Source: an uncultured Trueperaceae bacterium
GTDB taxonomy: Bacteria > Deinococcota > Deinococci > Deinococcales > Trueperaceae
DNA: 64,000 nucleotides
Direction: 5' to 3'
Assembly (NCBI GenBank): GCA_913057685.1
Contig: CAJXOA010000006.1
Span: forward strand, 1 to 64,000
The notes below the pieces were generated by a model. It did not search any database, was not told the DNA's origin, and saw only the letters and a program-made list of their open reading frames with translations. This document shows positions 25,013-32,980 of the stretch, piece after piece. Positions within the stretch are counted from its first letter, which is position 1. The number at the start of each line of letters is the position of its first letter. Made by a program: the position numbers and the translations under genes.

Positions 25013-26620
25013 CTAGCGGACGGCCTCCGGCACGCCCGCCGCCCCCCGCAACGGCGCGACGCCGTCCTTCACGAGCTTGTACTCGATCGCGTCGATCAAC
25101 GCCTGGTACGACGCGTCGATGATGTCGGTGCTCGCCCCCACCGTCCCCCAGGTGGCCTCCCCGTCGCCGTACTCCACCTGCACCCGAATGACGCTGGCGG
25201 TCCCGGTCTCCTCCCCCGACAACACCCGCACCTTGTAGTCGACCAACTCCAGGTCGGCGAGGGAGGGGTAGAACCGCTGGAGCGCCTTGCCGAGCGCCCG
25301 ATCGAGGGCGTTGACCGGCCCGTCGCCGTCGGCGGCGGTGTGCTCCTCGGCGTCGCCGACCGTCACCTTGATCGACGCCTCCGCGCGGGGGGCGCCGTCC
25401 GCGTCGCGCTTGTCGATGACGACCGTGAAGCCGCCCAGGTCGAAGTACGGCCGGTGCTCCCCGCGGACCTTCGCCGCCATCAGGCGGAACGACGCCTCCG
25501 CCCCCTCGAAGGCGTACCCGCGATGCTCGAGCTCCTTGAGTTTCGCGACGACCTCGCGCGCCCCCTCCCCCGCATCCGTGCCCTCGCCGGCGAACGGGCC
25601 CTCCCCCATCGCGAGGACGTTCGCGCGGCCCGACAGGTCGGAGACCAACACCCGCCGTTCGTTGCCGACCGCCTCGGGCGGGAGGTGCTCGTAGCTCTCC
25701 GGCCGCTTCGCGACGGCGGAGACGTGCACGCCCCCCTTGTGCGCGAAGGCGCCGTCACCGACGTACGGCGCGCGGGGGTTGGGCGACAGGTTCGCGCGTT
25801 CGTCGACGTAGCGCGCCAGCTCGCGGACGTGGGCGAGGTCCTGCGGTTGGTCGAACCCCATCTTGAAGGCGAGGTTCGCGGCGATCGACACGAGGTTGGC
25901 GTTCCCCGCGCGCTCGCCGTACCCCCCGATCGTGCCCTGCACGTGCCGGGCGCCCGCCTGCACCGCCGCCAGGCTGTTCGCGACCGCGAGCTCCGCGTCG
26001 TTGTGCGCGTGGATGCCGACCGGCACCCCCGACGCCGCCACCACCTCGCGGGTGCGCGCGGCGATCTCGTCCGGGAGGGTGCCGCCGTTCGTGTCGCACA
26101 GCACCACCCGCGCCGCGCCCCCCTCCAGCGCCGCGTCGAGGGTCGCCCGCGCGTAGGCGGCGTCGTCGCGCGCACCGTCGAAGTAGTGCTCGGCGTCGTA
26201 GACCACCTCGCGCCCCTGCGCGACGAGGAACGCGACGGAGTCGCGGATCATCGCCAGGTTCGTCTCCAGGTCGGTGCCGAGCGCCTCGCGGACGTGCAAC
26301 GTCCACGACTTCCCGAACACCGTCACGACCGGCGTCTCCGCCGCCACGAGCGCCGCGAGGTTCGCGTCGTCCTCCGCCGCGACCGCCTTGTGGCGGGTGC
26401 TGCCGAACGCCGCGAGGCGGGCGCGCGCCAGCGGCACGTCCCGCATCCGCGCGAAGAACTCGACGTCGCGCGGGTTGGAGCCCGGCCAGCCCCCCTCGAT
26501 CAGGTCGACGCCGAACGCGTCGAGGCGCCCCGCGACCGCGACCTTGTCGGCGCTCGTGAGGGCGAAGCCGATCCCCTGCGTTCCGTCCCGCAGGGTCGTG
26601 TCGTAGATCTCGACGCTCAC
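25013..26620 (-). CDS. cimA: (R)-citramalate synthase
   Basis: 535 residues, HMG-CoA-lyase-like TIM barrel. It is distinguished from LeuA by [36 protein letters not shown] and [13 protein letters not shown], which are hallmarks of CimA. A C-terminal LeuA-type regulatory domain (about 400-520) is present. It condenses pyruvate and acetyl-CoA to citramalate, feeding 2-oxobutyrate formation for isoleucine without threonine deaminase. It is the last gene of the ilv-leu operon; its GTG overlaps the leuA stop by 4 nt. Substrate choice is inferred from motif type. Confidence 0.9.
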
Positions 26621-28212
26621 GGGGTCGGCGCGCCGGTCGCCCCGTCGGGGGCCGGTGCGGCGTCCTCCGGACGCGTTCCGCCGACCGGCCGTCCCAGGCC
26701 GGCCGCCAGCTTGTTCATCGCCTCGAGGTACGCCTTCGCCGACGCCTCCACGACGTCGGTCGACAGCCCGCGGGCGTGGACCACGTGGTCGTCCTGCCGA
26801 GCGCGGACGGTGACCTCGCCGAGCGCGTCCTTGCCGTGCCCGACCGACCGGATCTCGTACGACTCCAGCCGCAACGTCCGCCCCGTCAACCGCTCGATCG
26901 CGTGGTAGATGGCGTCGACCGGGCCGTCGCCGACCGCCGCCTCCTCGTGCGCGACGCCGTCGACCTCGACCTCGACCGTCGCGACCGGCGTGACGCCGGT
27001 CCCGCTCTGGAACTGCACGCGCTTCAGCGCGTACGTCTCCGGCACGCGCGTCGTTTCGGCGTCGACGAGCGCGCGGATGTCCTCGCTCGTGACCGACGCC
27101 TTGCGGTCGGCGAGGTCCTTGAACTGCGCGAACAGGCGGTCGAGGTCGTCGTCCTCCAACTCGCCGTAGCCGAGGTCCTGCAGCGTCGCGCGGAAGGCGC
27201 GACGGCCGGAGTGCTTGCCCATGACGAGGACGCCGGCGTCGCGACCGACGGTCTCCGCGGACATGATCTCGTACGTCTCGACCGCCTTGATGACGCCGTC
27301 CTGGTGGATGCCGGACTCGTGCGCGAAGGCGTTGTCGCCGACGACCGCCTTGTTGGGCGGCACCACCATGCCGGTCATCATCGACACCATCCGCGACGTC
27401 CGGTACAGCTCGCGGGTCGCGACGCCGGTCGCGTGCCCCCAGACGTCCTTACGGGTCTCGAGCGCCATGACGATCTCCTCGAGGCTGGCGTTCCCCGCCC
27501 GCTCACCGATCCCGTTCAGGGTGCACTCGACCTGCGTCGCGCCGGCGCGGACGCCCGCCAACGAGTTCGCGACCGCCATGCCGAGGTCGTCGTGACAGTG
27601 CGTCGACAGGTCGACGTTCCGCAACGCCGGGACCGCCTCCAGGAGGCGTTCGATCAACGCGCCGTACTCCCACGGCGTCATGTAGCCGACCGTGTCGGGC
27701 ACGTTGATGGTGGTCGCGCCCGCCTCGACGGTCGCCGCGAAGATCGCTTCGAGGAACGCCGGGTCGCTGCGGCCGGCGTCCTCCGCGCTGAACTCGACGT
27801 CGTCGACGAACGTCTTCGCGAAGGTGACGGCGTCCACCGCCCGCTGCAGGACCGCGTCGGGCGTGCTCTGCAGCTTCTTCTCGATGTGGATGGGGCTCGT
27901 CGCGATGAACGTGTGGATGCGGGGGGCGGCGGCGGTCTCGAGCGCGGCGGCGGCCCGCTCGATGTCGCCCTGGTGGGCGCGGGCGAGGCCGGCGACGACG
28001 ACGTCGGCGTTCTCCTCCGCCGTCACCCGGGCGATCTCCGAGACGCTCTCGAAGTCGCCGGGGGACGCGACGGGGAAGCCGGCCTCGATCACGTCCACCC
28101 CGAGCCGCGCGAGCTGCCGTGCGATCTCGCGTTTCTCGCGCAGGTTGAGCGTGACGCCGGGGCTCTGTTCGCCGTCGCGCAGGGTCGTGTCGAAGATCTT
28201 GATGCGGGCCAT
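26617..28212 (-). CDS. leuA: 2-isopropylmalate synthase
   Basis: 531 residues. The catalytic barrel shows [30 protein letters not shown], the metal-binding [13 protein letters not shown] and [15 protein letters not shown]-terminal allosteric domain (about 385-510) normally binds leucine for feedback inhibition. It condenses 2-oxoisovalerate with acetyl-CoA at the leucine branch point. An SD (GGGAGGT) precedes the ATG, and the gene follows ilvC after 34 nt. Having leuA and cimA paralogues side by side gives one operon both the leucine and the threonine-independent isoleucine entry steps. Confidence 0.95.
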
Positions 28213-28246: not shown

Positions 28247-29239
28247 CTACGACGCGATGAAGGACATCATCTTGCGTAGTCGCTTGCCCACGGTCGCCAC
28301 CAGGCTGCGGTCGCTGGCCGCGCGTTCGGTCTTCAGGCGCGGCTGCCCGACCCGGTTCTCGAGCAGGAACTCCTGCGCGAAGGTGCCGTTGCGGATCTCC
28401 TCGAGCACGTCGCGCATCTCCGCGCGGGTCTCCTCGGTGATGATGCGCTTGCCGGTCCGGTAGTCGCCGTACTCGGCGGTGTTGCTGATCGAGTGCCGCA
28501 TCGTCTCGAAGCCGCCCTCGTAGATCAGGTCGACGATCAACTTCATTTCGTGCACGCACTCGAAGTAGGCGATCTCCGGCTGGTAGCCCGCCTCGACGAG
28601 GGTGTCGAAGCCGGCCTGCATGAGTTCGCTGACGCCGCCGCACAGCACCGCCTGCTCGCCGAACAGGTCGGTTTCGGTCTCCTCGCGGAACGTCGTCTCG
28701 AGCGCCCCGCCGCGCGTCCCGCCGATCGCCTTGGCGTACGCCAGGGCGCGCGGCATCGCTTCGCCCGTCGCGTCGACGTCGACGGCGACGAGGCACGGGA
28801 CGCCGCCCCCCTCGACGAACACGCGGCGCACCAGGTGCCCCGGGCCCTTCGGCGCGATCATGACGACGTCGACGCCCTCGGGGGGCGTGACCTGGTGGAA
28901 GACGCGGTTGAAGCCGTGCGCGAAGGCGAGGGCGTTCCCCGGCTCCAGGTTCGGGGCGACGTCGGTCGCGTAGACCTCCCCCTGGATCTCGTCGGGCAGC
29001 AGCACCATCACCAGGTCCCCGGCCTTCGCGGCGTCCGCGATGCTGGTGACCTTCAGGCCGGCGGCTTCCGCGTCGGCGCGGGAGGAGGAGCCCTCCCGCA
29101 GGCCGACGACGACGTCGAGACCGGAGGCGTGGGCGTTCAGGGCGTGGGCGTGGCCCTGCGAGCCGAACCCGAGGATGGCGATGGTCTTGCCCTGCAGGAC
29201 CTGCAGGTTCGCGTCGTCGTCGTAGTAGATGGTGGCCAT
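28247..29239 (-). CDS. ilvC: ketol-acid reductoisomerase
   Basis: 330 residues, class I (short) KARI. The Rossmann motif [14 protein letters not shown] and the cofactor loop [14 protein letters not shown] (Ser-rich, NADPH type) open the protein. Later come [12 protein letters not shown], the all-helical C-terminal knot and Mg-binding acids in [20 protein letters not shown] and [14 protein letters not shown]. It reduces and isomerises acetolactate or acetohydroxybutyrate. An SD (AAGGAG) precedes the ATG. A C-rich 94-nt gap separates it from ilvN, with no promoter I can see. Confidence 0.97.
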
Positions 29240-29333: not shown

Positions 29334-29885
29334 TCAGGTCACGTCGGCCCGCTCCGGCGGGGCGACCGCGTCGCCGCGCCCCCCGTTCCGACCCGCGCTG
29401 CGCGGCAGCGCGATCCGGCCGGTCCGAATGAGTTCGACGATCCCGAAATCCTGCATCTGGTCGATGAAGGCGTCCATCTTGCCCTCGTCGCCGGTGAGTT
29501 CGAACACGAGCGCGCGCCGCGAGACGTCGACGATCCGGGCGCGGAAGTCCTGCGCGATCTGCCGCAACTCGACGCGTTCGTCGGGCCCGCGCACCGCGAC
29601 CTTGATGAGCATCAGTTCGCGGTCGACGAAGTTCGTTTCGGTGTGGTCGACGACCTTGAGGACGTCGACGAGCTTCTGCAGCTGCTTCTGGACCTGCTCG
29701 ATCGTCGCCGGGTCGCCGTCGACGACGAACGTCGTGCGGCTGAGGCCGGGGGTCTCCGACTCCGCGACGGACAACGACGCGATGTTGAAGCCGCGCCGCG
29801 CGAACAGGCCGGCGATGCGCACGAGGACGCCCGGTTCGTCGCGGACGGTGACGGAGATGACGCGGCGGCTGGAGGGGGCGCTCAC
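29334..29885 (-). CDS. ilvN: acetolactate synthase small (regulatory) subunit
   Basis: 183 residues. The N-terminal ACT domain (about 8-80; [31 protein letters not shown]) binds valine for feedback inhibition. The C-terminal IlvN domain (about 85-165) activates the catalytic subunit ([26 protein letters not shown]). The GTG start overlaps the ilvB stop by 4 nt, consistent with stoichiometric coupling. The last 20 residues are a low-complexity extension. Confidence 0.95.
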
Positions 29886-31573
29886 GAGGTCGCCTCGGCG
29901 TCGGGCTCCTGGTCGCCGATCATCATTTCGTCCACCCCGGCGCCGGCGGGGATCATCGGGAAGACCTTCTCGGATTCGTACACCACGAAGTTCAGCAGCG
30001 CCGGCCCGCCGCGCGCCACGACCTCGGGCACGAGCGCCTGCGCGGTCTCGCGATCGAAGACGTTGTGGCCCTCGATGCCGTACGCCTCGGCGACCTTCGC
30101 GAAGTCGGGGTTGCTGTCGGCGAGGAAGATCTCGCTGTAGCGCTGGGCGTGGAACAGCTCCTGCCACTGCCGCACCATCCCCAGCACCCCGTTGTTGGTG
30201 ATGGCGATGAAGATCGGCAGGTCGTGCTTGCGGATCGTCGCGAGCTCCTGGATGTTCATCTGGATGCTGCCGTCCCCGGCGATCAGGACGACCGGCGTCC
30301 CGGGGTTCGCGAACGCCGCCCCGATCGCGGCGGGCAGGCCGAAGCCCATCGTGCCCAACCCACCGGACGTGATCCAGGTGCGCGGCGCGTTCGTCGGGTA
30401 GAGGCGCGCGGCGAACATCTGGTGCTGCCCGACGTCGGTCGCGACGATCGCGTCGGACCCGACGACGTCGCGCATCAGCTCGATGACCTCCTGGCTGACG
30501 AGCGGCTTTTCGGTCTTGTAGCGCTCCGGGTAGCGCGCCTTCCACTCGCGCAGTTGCGCCCACCACGGCTCGACGTCGAGGGGGCCGAGCTCGTCGGCGA
30601 GGCGCGGCAGGACGTCGCGCAGGTCGCCGACCACCGGCACGTGCGCGTGCACGAGCTTCGAGATCTCCGCCGGGTCGACGTCGATGTGCACGACCGTCGC
30701 GTTCGGCGCGAAGCGACTGATCTTGCCGGTGACGCGGTCGTCGAAGCGCAGGCCCGCCCCGATGATGAGGTCGCAGTGCGTGATGGCGCGGTTCGACGTG
30801 ACGGTGCCGTGCATGCCCGGCATGCCGAGCGACTGGTCGCGCCCGGCGGGGTAGGCGCCGATCCCCATCAGGGTCGTGATGACCGGCACGCCGAGGCGTT
30901 CGGCGAACGCCATGACCTCGGGCGCGGCGACCTGCCCCCCGCCGCCGACCATCAACACCGGGCGTTCCGCGGCGCGGATCGCCTCCGCCGCCTTGCGGAT
31001 CTGGCCGGCGTGCCCCGACCACGTCGGTTGGAAGCCGGGCAGGTCCACCTCGATCTCCGCGTCGACGTCCCCCTCGAACGCCGCCTGTTGGACGTCCTTG
31101 GGGATGTCGACCAGGACCGGGCCGGGCCGGCCGGTGGTGGCGATGTGGAACGCTTCGGCGATGACGCGCGGCAGGTCCTCGACGCGCTTGACGAGGAAGT
31201 TGTGCTTCGTGACGGGGCCGGTGATGCCGTAGACGTCCGCCTCCTGGAAGGCGTCGGTCCCGATGAGGCTGGTGGGGACGTTCCCGGTGATCGCGACGAC
31301 GGCGCTGCTGTCCATCATCGCGGTCGCGAGGCCGGTCACCAGGTTCGTCGCCCCCGGACCGCTCGTGGCGATCACGACGCCGGGCTTCCCCGACGCCCGG
31401 TAGTAGGCGTCGGCGGCGTGCGCGCCGGCCTGCTCGTGGCGCACCAGGACGTGACGGACGTTGCCGTCGTAGATGGCGTCGTAGACGGGCATGATCGCGC
31501 CGCCGGGATGGCCGAACGCCACCTCGACCCCATGGCGTTCCAGCGCGCGGATGACGACTTCGGCACCGTTCAT
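29882..31573 (-). CDS. ilvB: acetolactate synthase catalytic subunit
   Basis: 563 residues, ThDP enzyme. The N-terminal domain holds the activating Glu in VRHEQAGAHAADAYYRASG and ATSGPGATNLVTG. A central FAD/nucleotide domain follows, then the ThDP motif GDGSIQMNIQELATI and ITNNGVLGMVRQWQELF. It makes acetolactate or acetohydroxybutyrate, the first common step to valine, leucine and isoleucine. A GGAGGAA SD stands 4 nt before ATG 31573. Upstream lie a terminator hairpin, a short leader peptide gene and a consensus promoter, so expression is probably controlled by attenuation. Confidence 0.97.
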   Translation of the reverse strand: MNGAEVVIRALERHGVEVAFGHPGGAIMPVYDAIYDGNVRHVLVRHEQAGAHAADAYYRASGKPGVVIATSGPGATNLVTGLATAMMDSSAVVAITGNVPTSLIGTDAFQEADVYGITGPVTKHNFLVKRVEDLPRVIAEAFHIATTGRPGPVLVDIPKDVQQAAFEGDVDAEIEVDLPGFQPTWSGHAGQIRKAAEAIRAAERPVLMVGGGGQVAAPEVMAFAERLGVPVITTLMGIGAYPAGRDQSLGMPGMHGTVTSNRAITHCDLIIGAGLRFDDRVTGKISRFAPNATVVHIDVDPAEISKLVHAHVPVVGDLRDVLPRLADELGPLDVEPWWAQLREWKARYPERYKTEKPLVSQEVIELMRDVVGSDAIVATDVGQHQMFAARLYPTNAPRTWITSGGLGTMGFGLPAAIGAAFANPGTPVVLIAGDGSIQMNIQELATIRKHDLPIFIAITNNGVLGMVRQWQELFHAQRYSEIFLADSNPDFAKVAEAYGIEGHNVFDRETAQALVPEVVARGGPALLNFVVYESEKVFPMIPAGAGVDEMMIGDQEPDAEATS

Positions 31574-31615
31574 GGTTCCTCCTCGGCCCGAACGCGAGCG
31601 ACGTTCCGGGCGGGG

Positions 31616-31654
31616 CACGAAAACGTCCCACCGAGGTGCGGTCGGTGGGACGTC
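31616..31654 (-). terminator. intrinsic terminator/attenuator in the ilvB leader
   Basis: A perfect 12-bp stem (31623-31634 pairing with 31642-31653; arm CGTCCCACCGA) with a 7-nt loop is followed on the minus strand by TTTTCG. It lies between the leader peptide stop (31681) and the ilvB SD, about 40-50 nt before the ilvB ATG. It is the only hairpin with a U-tract I found in the window. Confidence 0.8.
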
Positions 31655-31680
31655 GCTTCGTGCGTGGCGTGATGCAACGA

Positions 31681-31761
31681 CTACGCAGCGGGCCCCGAAC
31701 CCCGTAGGCCTACGACCACGACGGTCGAGACGATCCGGAGGGGGGCTGCGACGTTGCTCAC
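31681..31761 (-). CDS. ilv operon leader peptide (attenuation)
   Basis: 26 codons, from GTG 31761 to TAG 31681. Nine of 26 residues are branched-chain (Val4, Leu8, Ile10, Val11, Val14-17, Leu19), including four consecutive Val codons (GTC GTG GTC GTA). It ends 27 nt before the terminator stem. The GTG lies 8 nt after the -10 box, so the transcript appears to begin at or next to the start codon. This is the arrangement of classical ilv leaders (ilvB ivbL, ilvGMEDA), where slow translation of Val/Leu/Ile codons prevents terminator formation. It is too short to be judged by homology. The call rests on composition and position. Confidence 0.72.
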   Translation of the reverse strand: MSNVAAPLRIVSTVVVVGLRGSGPAA

Positions 31762-31769
31762 TGGGGCGC

Positions 31770-31798
31770 ACGATACAGGCTGCTAGCGTCGGTGTCAA
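31770..31798 (-). promoter_or_regulatory. ilvB operon promoter, TTGACA-N17-TATCGT
   Basis: -35 TTGACA at 31798-31793 and -10 TATCGT at 31775-31770, with a 17-nt spacer. It is identical in hexamers and spacing to the gltB promoter. The predicted start is at about 31762, immediately before or at the leader peptide GTG. Confidence 0.82.
31781..31789 (+). promoter_or_regulatory. possible extended -10 for spoVS, TGC-TAGCGT
   Basis: TGCTAGCGT lies inside the spacer of the oppositely oriented ilvB promoter, about 60 nt before the spoVS GTG. No -35 is evident. If used, the two promoters cannot be occupied together. Confidence 0.35.
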
Positions 31799-31848
31799 CG
31801 CGCGCGCGCCGTCGCCGACGGCCGCCGCGGCCCCTTGGGAGGTGGCCC

Positions 31849-32190
31849 GTGGAAGTGCTTCGCGTCTCCGCAACGTCCAGACCCCACGCCGTGGCGGGCG
31901 CGATCGCCGGCGTCCTGCGCCGCGATCGCGCCGTCGCCGTCCAAGCGATCGGCGCCGCCGCCGTCAACCAGGCGGTCAAGGCCCTCGCCGTCGCCCGCGG
32001 GTACCTCGTCGAGGACCGCCTCGAGCTGTCCGCGACCCCGGCCTTCGTGACGCTGGAGCTGCACGGCGATGAGCGCACCGCGGTGCACCTGCAGGTCGCC
32101 GCCCGCCCGCAGGCGGACGGCGTGGGGGCGGCGCCCCCGCCCGCGCCGCAGCCGACCGTGGCGGCGCACCCCGACGCCGGCCTCGACTGA
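31849..32190 (+). CDS. SpoVS-like (stage V sporulation protein S) nucleic-acid-binding protein
   Basis: 113 residues. The SpoVS fold is clear in VEVLRVSATSRPHAVAGAIAGVL, VQAIGAAAVNQAVKALAVARG and PAFVTLELHGDERTAVHLQV, the last being the Alba-like end of the family. A 25-residue Pro/Ala tail follows. GTG 31849 is chosen because GGGAGG precedes it and homologues begin at this valine. SpoVS proteins occur in non-sporulating Deinococcota and Thermus, where they are thought to bind nucleic acid. The gene is divergent from the ilv operon. Confidence 0.88.
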   Translation: MEVLRVSATSRPHAVAGAIAGVLRRDRAVAVQAIGAAAVNQAVKALAVARGYLVEDRLELSATPAFVTLELHGDERTAVHLQVAARPQADGVGAAPPPAPQPTVAAHPDAGLD

Positions 32191-32231
32191 CGACGGTCGC
32201 CTGGACGGCGGCGGCGCGTGAGGCGAACGCG

Positions 32232-32237
32232 TACACT
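32232..32237 (+). promoter_or_regulatory. -10 box TACACT upstream of the zinc metallopeptidase gene
   Basis: TACACT lies about 84 nt before ATG 32321. No convincing -35 is present. The gene has its own GGGAGGT SD, so an ordinary leader is expected. Confidence 0.45.
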
Positions 32238-32320
32238 GGGTTCTCGAACGGCGGTGGACCGCCCGGCCTCGCGACCCGCGCGGCCGAGGACGGCGTCCGC
32301 CGACCCTCGGGAGGTCCACG

Positions 32321-32980
32321 ATGTTCGCGATCTTCATCCTCATGATGGTCCTGACCCTCGGGGCGCAGTGGTACCTGCGCTCCACCTTCGGCACCTGGTC
32401 GAAGAAGGCCAACACCGCCGGCCTCACCGGCCGCGATACCGCCCGGACGATCCTCCGCAAGCACGGCCTGGACGACACCGTCGCCATCGAGCAGGTCAAG
32501 GGCGAACTCAGCGACCACTACGACCCCACCAAGCGGGTCGTGCGCCTCTCCGACCCGATCCACTCCCAAGCGTCGGTCGCCGGCATGGCGGTCGCCGCCC
32601 ACGAGGTCGGGCACGCCCTGCAGCACGCCAACGCCTACGCCCCCCTGCAGTGGCGCAGCGCCCTGATGCCGGTCGCCAACATCGGTGGGCAGTTCGGGCC
32701 GTACCTGGCGATCTTCGGCCTGATGTTGGGCGCGTCGGGCCTCCTGAACGTCGGCATCGTGCTGTTCGGGGCCGCCGTCGCCTTCCAGCTGGTGACGCTA
32801 CCGATCGAGTTCGACGCCTCGCGCCGCGCGCTCGCGGAAATGCGCGACCTCGGCATCGTCACGCAGAACGATGCGGGCGGCGCCCGCGCGGTGCTGAACG
32901 CCGCAGCGCTCACGTACGTCGCCGCCGCCGCCGGCAGCGTGATGTACCTGCTGTACTTCATCCTCATGGCTCGCCGCTGA
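32321..32980 (+). CDS. YugP-family membrane zinc metallopeptidase
   Basis: 219 residues. An N-terminal TM helix (2-17) is followed by the peptidase core with HEVGH (H94, E95, H98) preceded by SVAGMAVAA. Then come two or three TM helices (about 120-160 and 198-216). This is the neutral zinc metallopeptidase family typified by Bacillus YugP. Substrates are unknown. The active site faces the cytoplasm or membrane interface in topology predictions of the family. A GGGAGG SD precedes the ATG. rsmB starts 8 nt downstream of its stop, so they may be co-transcribed. Confidence 0.85.
   Translation: MFAIFILMMVLTLGAQWYLRSTFGTWSKKANTAGLTGRDTARTILRKHGLDDTVAIEQVKGELSDHYDPTKRVVRLSDPIHSQASVAGMAVAAHEVGHALQHANAYAPLQWRSALMPVANIGGQFGPYLAIFGLMLGASGLLNVGIVLFGAAVAFQLVTLPIEFDASRRALAEMRDLGIVTQNDAGGARAVLNAAALTYVAAAAGSVMYLLYFILMARR

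Follow-up and report, generated by a model that had tools for sequence, protein, structure and literature searches.

Within the window, by which we mean the whole 64,000-nucleotide stretch analysed here, the minus strand carries a presumed ilvB-ilvN-ilvC-leuA operon for branched-chain amino acid synthesis. Its first gene, ilvB, encodes the acetolactate synthase large subunit (29891–31573 as read, with the stop codon just past this range; ATG at 31573; Pfam TPP_enzyme N, M and C), and is preceded by the region GAGGAGGAACC (31574–31584), which holds the Shine-Dalgarno sequence GAGGAGG. It is followed by ilvN, the acetolactate synthase small subunit (29334–29885; Pfam ALS_ss_C and ACT_AHAS_ss), ilvC, encoding ketol-acid reductoisomerase (28247–29239; Pfam KARI_N and KARI_C), and leuA, encoding 2-isopropylmalate synthase (26617–28212; Pfam HMGL-like and LeuA_dimer), the last gene examined. 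A SpoVS-family gene on the plus strand (31849–32190) is divergently oriented, with some 50 bp separating it from the ilvB promoter.

This promoter consists of a -35 box, TTGACA (31793–31798), which matches at 6/6 positions and lies at the same place in nearly all of the 95 relatives described below, and a -10 box, TATCGT (31770–31775), which reads TATACT in the sister species and in most of the family. With a 17-nt spacer between the boxes, it is the sole promoter-like site in 31000–32500 (10/12 matches, versus 0.1 expected). Eight nucleotides past the -10 box, a GTG (31759–31761) opens the leader ORF VSNVAAPLRIVSTVVVVGLRGSGPAA (31681–31761), which runs for 26 codons and ends in TAG. From this spacing, the transcript is predicted to begin with the A at 31762 or with the GTG itself, which would leave a 5′ UTR of 0–2 nt. 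Downstream of the start, nine codons specify Leu, Ile or Val, and the control-codon stretch ATC GTC TCG ACC GTC GTG GTC GTA GGC CTA (31705–31734) contains the rare GTA and CTA. At least nine Leu/Ile/Val codons per 25 were seen in 0.3% of base shuffles of this ORF and in 3.2% of the stop-free stretches in the window, so the ORF taken alone is only moderately unusual; the observation is secure because the layout is conserved across the 95 relatives.

Between the leader ORF and ilvB, segment 3 (GACGTCCCACCGA, 31642–31654) and segment 4 (TCGGTGGGACGTTTT, 31620–31634) form the 5′ and 3′ arms of a putative terminator, the latter with a short T run. The original prediction had described an attenuator-type leader at this site, and all its parts were found at these minus-strand coordinates in the window sequence. 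It had included a perfect 12-bp hairpin followed by TTTT: the stem is present as described, but the first T is its last paired base, and what follows is TTT and then C. A terminator scan of the window did not call this hairpin an intrinsic terminator.

Relatives were sought among the genome's own relatives, its order and its phylum (111 genomes, with ilvB in nearly all), and 95 ilvB upstream regions were read from five families (f1–f5) of the phylum, which is probably Deinococcota. We take f1 to be the Truepera family, which includes the window, and f4 to be Thermus/Meiothermus. The layout was present in 95 of 95 regions: a TTGACA-type -35 box, 16–18 nt, a -10 box, the start codon, a short Leu/Val/Ile-rich ORF and, before ilvB, a hairpin. 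In all relatives the start codon lies 6–10 nt past the -10 box, which, given usual start-site choice, would correspond to a 5′ UTR of at most about 4 nt (0–4); since the two are so close in every relative read, the leaders have no room for a Shine-Dalgarno sequence. A strict parser (-35 box with at least 5/6 matches, TAnnnT, start 6–10 nt later, at least 25% Leu/Ile/Val) accepted 86/95 of the phylum regions, 1/78 ilvB-type regions outside the phylum (from a scan with IlvB; mostly Proteobacteria, with no phylum relatives), 0/475 shuffles and 1/95 reverse complements. Across the 95 leaders, the peptide varies from 16 to 36 residues, with Leu/Val/Ile making up 32–46% by family. The T run after the hairpin is clear in most relatives, short in the window and nearly absent in two members of the genus (G002 and G003). 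Comparison with related genomes, which had been proposed as a check, thus found the ORF and its branched-chain codons kept in all 95 regions, and the presence of the switch before the operon in all five families examined indicates that it is real and old.

The leader control codons are biased toward the rarest synonyms. CTA makes up 41% of leader Leu codons in f1, 41% in f3 and 62% in f4, compared with 4%, 0% and 2% in ilvB, and GTA accounts for 22, 26 and 43% of leader Val codons in the same families, compared with 8, 1 and 1%. In the window, ilvB, ilvC and leuA together use CTA for 1 of 102 Leu codons and GTA for 0 of 145 Val codons, and the 26-codon leader has both. Every one of the 95 leaders contains CTA, GTA or ATT, and the final codon of this set in each leader stands at a family median of 7–10 codons before the stop. 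The proposal that Leu, Val and Ile serve as the control codons of an attenuator is borne out by the comparison with the 95 relatives and by this rare-codon bias. A likeness is seen in Salmonella typhimurium, where the leu leader is a conventional one, led by a Shine-Dalgarno sequence. In that leu attenuator, which belongs to another operon, the same rare CUA is the sensitive Leu control codon (PMC1183508).

No antiterminator had been found by eye in the original prediction. In nearly every relative, the ORF ends in a G-rich segment complementary to the terminator 5′ arm, and an antiterminator of this form holds in the family, with a weak copy in the window genome; its 5′ strand there is segment 2 (CGGGGTTCGGGGCCCGCTGCG, 31684–31704), and segment 3 doubles as its 3′ strand. 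Over all genomes, the total duplex energy of segment 2:3 is -1875 versus a permuted mean of -1630, matched in 0/2000 partner permutations, a result that partly reflects phylogeny and family differences; within f1, the match is not above permutation (232/2000). Ungapped helix scores were also compared with dinucleotide shuffles at a cut-off of p ≤ 0.05, and the pairing exceeded them in 4/4 leaders of f5, 2/3 of f2, 7/13 of f3, 7/44 of f4 and 4/31 of f1. The window's own segment 2:3 pairing is not above shuffles (p = 0.55), scoring -16.5 versus -25.0 in the sister species (G004), where a perfect 7-bp block sets CGGGACG against CGTCCCG. Matched changes are seen in f5, where segments 3, 2 and 4 read GACCCTCGG, CCGAGGGTC and CCGAGGGTC in one genome (G040), and GACCCCCGC, GGGGGTC and GCGGGGGTT in another (G032). 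Judged by these complementarities, the family is predicted to have an antiterminator that excludes the terminator and would be blocked by a ribosome at the stop codon, while the window's own copy of the attenuator may be weakened.

Each leader was cut off ahead of the terminator 3′ arm and folded with the positions under a ribosome masked, the footprint being moved over all codons. This is an equilibrium model, with kinetics and the bulk of the ribosome inside the loop outside its reach. The peak antiterminator probability with the ribosome at a Leu/Val/Ile codon was 0.65, 0.82, 0.83, 0.77 and 0.89 (means for f1 to f5). Placing the ribosome at the stop codon instead gave 0.09, 0.30, 0.46, 0.03 and 0.09, and two further footprint sizes gave the same trend. 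In f3, stall and stop differed clearly in just 7/13 leaders. A ribosome placed at the last rare codon only gave little antitermination, because its footprint overlaps segment 2. The window fold predicted antitermination for stalls at codons 3–11 (0.6–0.7) and none at the VVVV run or at CTA; with the ribosome at VVVV, the 5′ end is left unoccupied and available for pairing.

A pairing not noted in the original prediction joins the 5′ tip of the transcript, and with it the start codon, to the spacer directly after the leader stop. In the window, the tip AGTGAGCAACG (31752–31762) faces the spacer CGTTGCATCAC (31669–31679), or GUGAGCAACG with CGUUGCAUCAC as RNA; the spacer has a counterpart in Thermaceae, and the Thermus pairing is GAUGCGC with GCGCAUC. 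In the Thermaceae alignment, 91.6% of cells are in standard pairs versus 21–57% when the partner is slid, and the two GUG-start leaders have CAC where the AUG-start leaders have CAU, a two-sided change that is probably one event. The covariation score in Thermaceae was matched by 26/500 shuffles, pair counting being limited by the C-runs of Thermus and Meiothermus, which stand one column out of register. By free-energy permutation, the pairing is significant across all families; it is not significant within f1 as a group, so it is not put forward as a feature of all families, and it is absent in f5, which also showed no lock without a ribosome in masked folding. In Thermaceae, the post-stop spacer additionally forms the outer portion of the antiterminator, so the 5′-tip and antiterminator states are mutually exclusive there.

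On the strength of the sequence data, we consider it highly probable that a ribosome-mediated transcription attenuator controls ilvB-ilvN-ilvC-leuA, the window element being in all likelihood a leaderless attenuator of ilvL type. The parts, their conservation and the alternative pairings are directly visible, and initiation, stalling and termination would act on them as follows. RNA polymerase would start no more than 1–2 nt from the first leader codon, and the 5′ end of the RNA would be where a ribosome initiates. Under a shortage of charged tRNA for Leu, Val or Ile, this ribosome would wait at the control codons, many of which are the rare CUA, GUA and AUU; segment 2 would then be free to pair with segment 3, and transcription would continue. 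With charged tRNAs available, it would reach the stop and cover segment 2, the 3:4 hairpin would form and transcription would end. If no ribosome starts, the 5′ tip may, in many species including that of the window, pair with the post-stop spacer and thereby conceal segment 2 as well as the start codon; termination would then again be the default.

An alternative is that the system works in the relatives and that the copy in the window genome is decaying, leaving either a near-constant brake or a nearly inactive element. The weak antiterminator, which falls short of that of the sister species, the -10 box TATCGT instead of TATACT and the mere TTT past the stem all point this way; however, the frame, the Leu/Val/Ile codons, GTA and CTA, the 5′-tip pairing and the 12-bp stem are all retained, and the window fold still permits antitermination for stalls at codons 3–11, which makes decay appear unlikely to us. 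The short T run also bears on whether the hairpin might work via translation or Rho instead of as an intrinsic terminator. T runs are weak in G002, G003, the window's genome (G000) and its sister (G004), Thermus hairpins finish a few bases short of AGGAGG, and several leaderless attenuators of Streptomyces lividans are likewise without U tracts (PMC8079986). In most relatives the T run is nevertheless clear, and the hairpin does not include the Shine-Dalgarno sequence, leaving such a mode of action rather improbable.

We regard it as very improbable that the short ORF is the gene of a functional small protein lying beside an ordinary terminator. Leader peptides can indeed work in trans, as exemplified by peTrpL of Sinorhizobium meliloti (PMC7298713), but between genera only the Leu/Val/Ile content and the codon choice are conserved here, over lengths of 16–36 residues, which is not the pattern of a selected protein. 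An RNA sensor that works independently of the ribosome, such as a riboswitch or T-box, as might be considered for a long structured leader preceding a biosynthetic operon, is scarcely credible, as the structure is made from the ORF itself. Rfam gave no family at the gathering threshold across the whole window, and nothing relevant at E <1 in the window ilvB leader or in the leaders of five relatives; a T-box or known riboswitch was set aside, having no Rfam covariance-model match. Our preferred reading is the ribosome-mediated attenuator.

For this attenuator, the mechanism class is already known, and the lineage alone appears to be new. The original prediction of ilv attenuation with a leaderless peptide stands in its architecture, its codons and a start too near the -10 box for a Shine-Dalgarno sequence, all seen in the 95 relatives, but the idea that a leaderless attenuator peptide is an undescribed mechanism is not supported, given published cases (PMC8079986, PMC11857589, PMC7298713). 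Leaderless transcription is reported in S. lividans for ilvL, leuL and trpL, and the ilvL of ilvBHC (MRTRILVLGKRVG) has, as predicted for the window leader, a short leaderless Leu/Val/Ile ORF before an ilvB operon, with hairpins and a U-rich stretch, there with RNA-seq support; it differs in belonging to another phylum, in its 13-residue peptide and in showing no evident sequence similarity (PMC8079986). The ilvBNC leader of Corynebacterium glutamicum (MTIIRLVVVTARRLP), according to the available part of the report, is near-leaderless, as predicted for that of the window, its transcript starting one nucleotide from the ilvL start codon, and combines a terminator, an antiterminator and an anti-antiterminator in a three-hairpin model tested by mutation, with the Val codons and the start codon shown to be important (PMC11857589). 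That leader region is 292 nt long versus about 190 nt in the window, and the same part of the report does not describe start-codon pairing itself (PMC11857589). For Mycobacterium tuberculosis ilvB1NC, in another phylum, the accessible portion of the source describes the same type of Leu/Val/Ile uORF, with a GUA regulatory codon, a ribosome-masked antiterminator model and an intrinsic terminator, and does not state a leaderless start (PMC13236596). The trpL attenuator RNA of S. meliloti, an alphaproteobacterium, begins at the ATG of the leader peptide, much as predicted for the window, and differs in sensing tryptophan through a 14-residue leader (PMC7298713). We found no report of an attenuator or leader peptide in the open literature on Deinococcus/Thermus, which does not prove priority; what is added here is the phylum, the near-universal presence in it and the start-codon pairing.

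Some control loci upstream of ilvB have leaders of their own. In Actinoplanes (L045 and L074), the leader MCFASRVLI lies about 6 nt past an AAGGTT -10-like box, a layout that fits the known leaderless actinobacterial ilvL type. A Chloroflexi locus upstream of ilvB (L065) has a Leu/Ile/Val-rich ORF (LLGLLLIVLVIIVLLLSG), a GCCGCC/GGCGGC hairpin and a T run, and is perhaps another ilv attenuator.

Further leaderless ORFs were sought by a pattern search in four genomes. At Meiothermus/Thermus-like loci (L207, in G059 from C1:2147084 onwards, L208, L209 and L211), a Phe/Tyr-rich leaderless ORF and a hairpin precede DAHP synthase (Pfam DAHP_synth_1), with leaders such as MQTSRGFASQNTHFYGYFYWPVVPVRPV and MRTLGRYFGFYYPAGGALRSA, making this a candidate second leaderless attenuator. 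Upstream of the same DAHP synthase in f1 and f3 (L212, L214, L215, L216, L217, L218, L220 and L221), there is a short conserved peptide, for example MEDGYGY or VDDGYGY, which directly follows a GG-rich stretch; some of these fit a leaderless ORF. The window genome (L188, C9:40375) and its sister (L195, C78) also share a promoter with a near-leaderless 26-codon ORF (MRPRRRLVWAQFVQHVGLRRRRNDGA), followed by a CCCCCGGT/ACCGGGGG inverted repeat.

It is possible, though we lean somewhat against it, that leaderless attenuators across the phylum use the start codon itself as one strand of the regulatory RNA, the 5′ tip pairing with the post-stop spacer, and that the same leaderless design serves other operons, for example through the aromatic leader that precedes DAHP synthase in Meiothermus/Thermus. 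If this is true, the ribosome must start at the bare 5′ end before about 70–90 more bases are made, and without a timely ribosome the start codon would be sealed and termination would be the default. The comparison also suggests an annotation rule for such leaders, namely a start 6–10 nt past the -10 box and rare control codons 7–10 codons before the stop. More broadly, the reach of leaderless, ribosome-sensed attenuation is widened from Actinobacteria and alphaproteobacteria to, probably, Deinococcota, a phylum that includes such convenient laboratory species as Thermus thermophilus and Meiothermus ruber, and it becomes a testable question how a ribosome obliged to start at a bare 5′ end could keep up with RNA polymerase over fewer than 100 bases.
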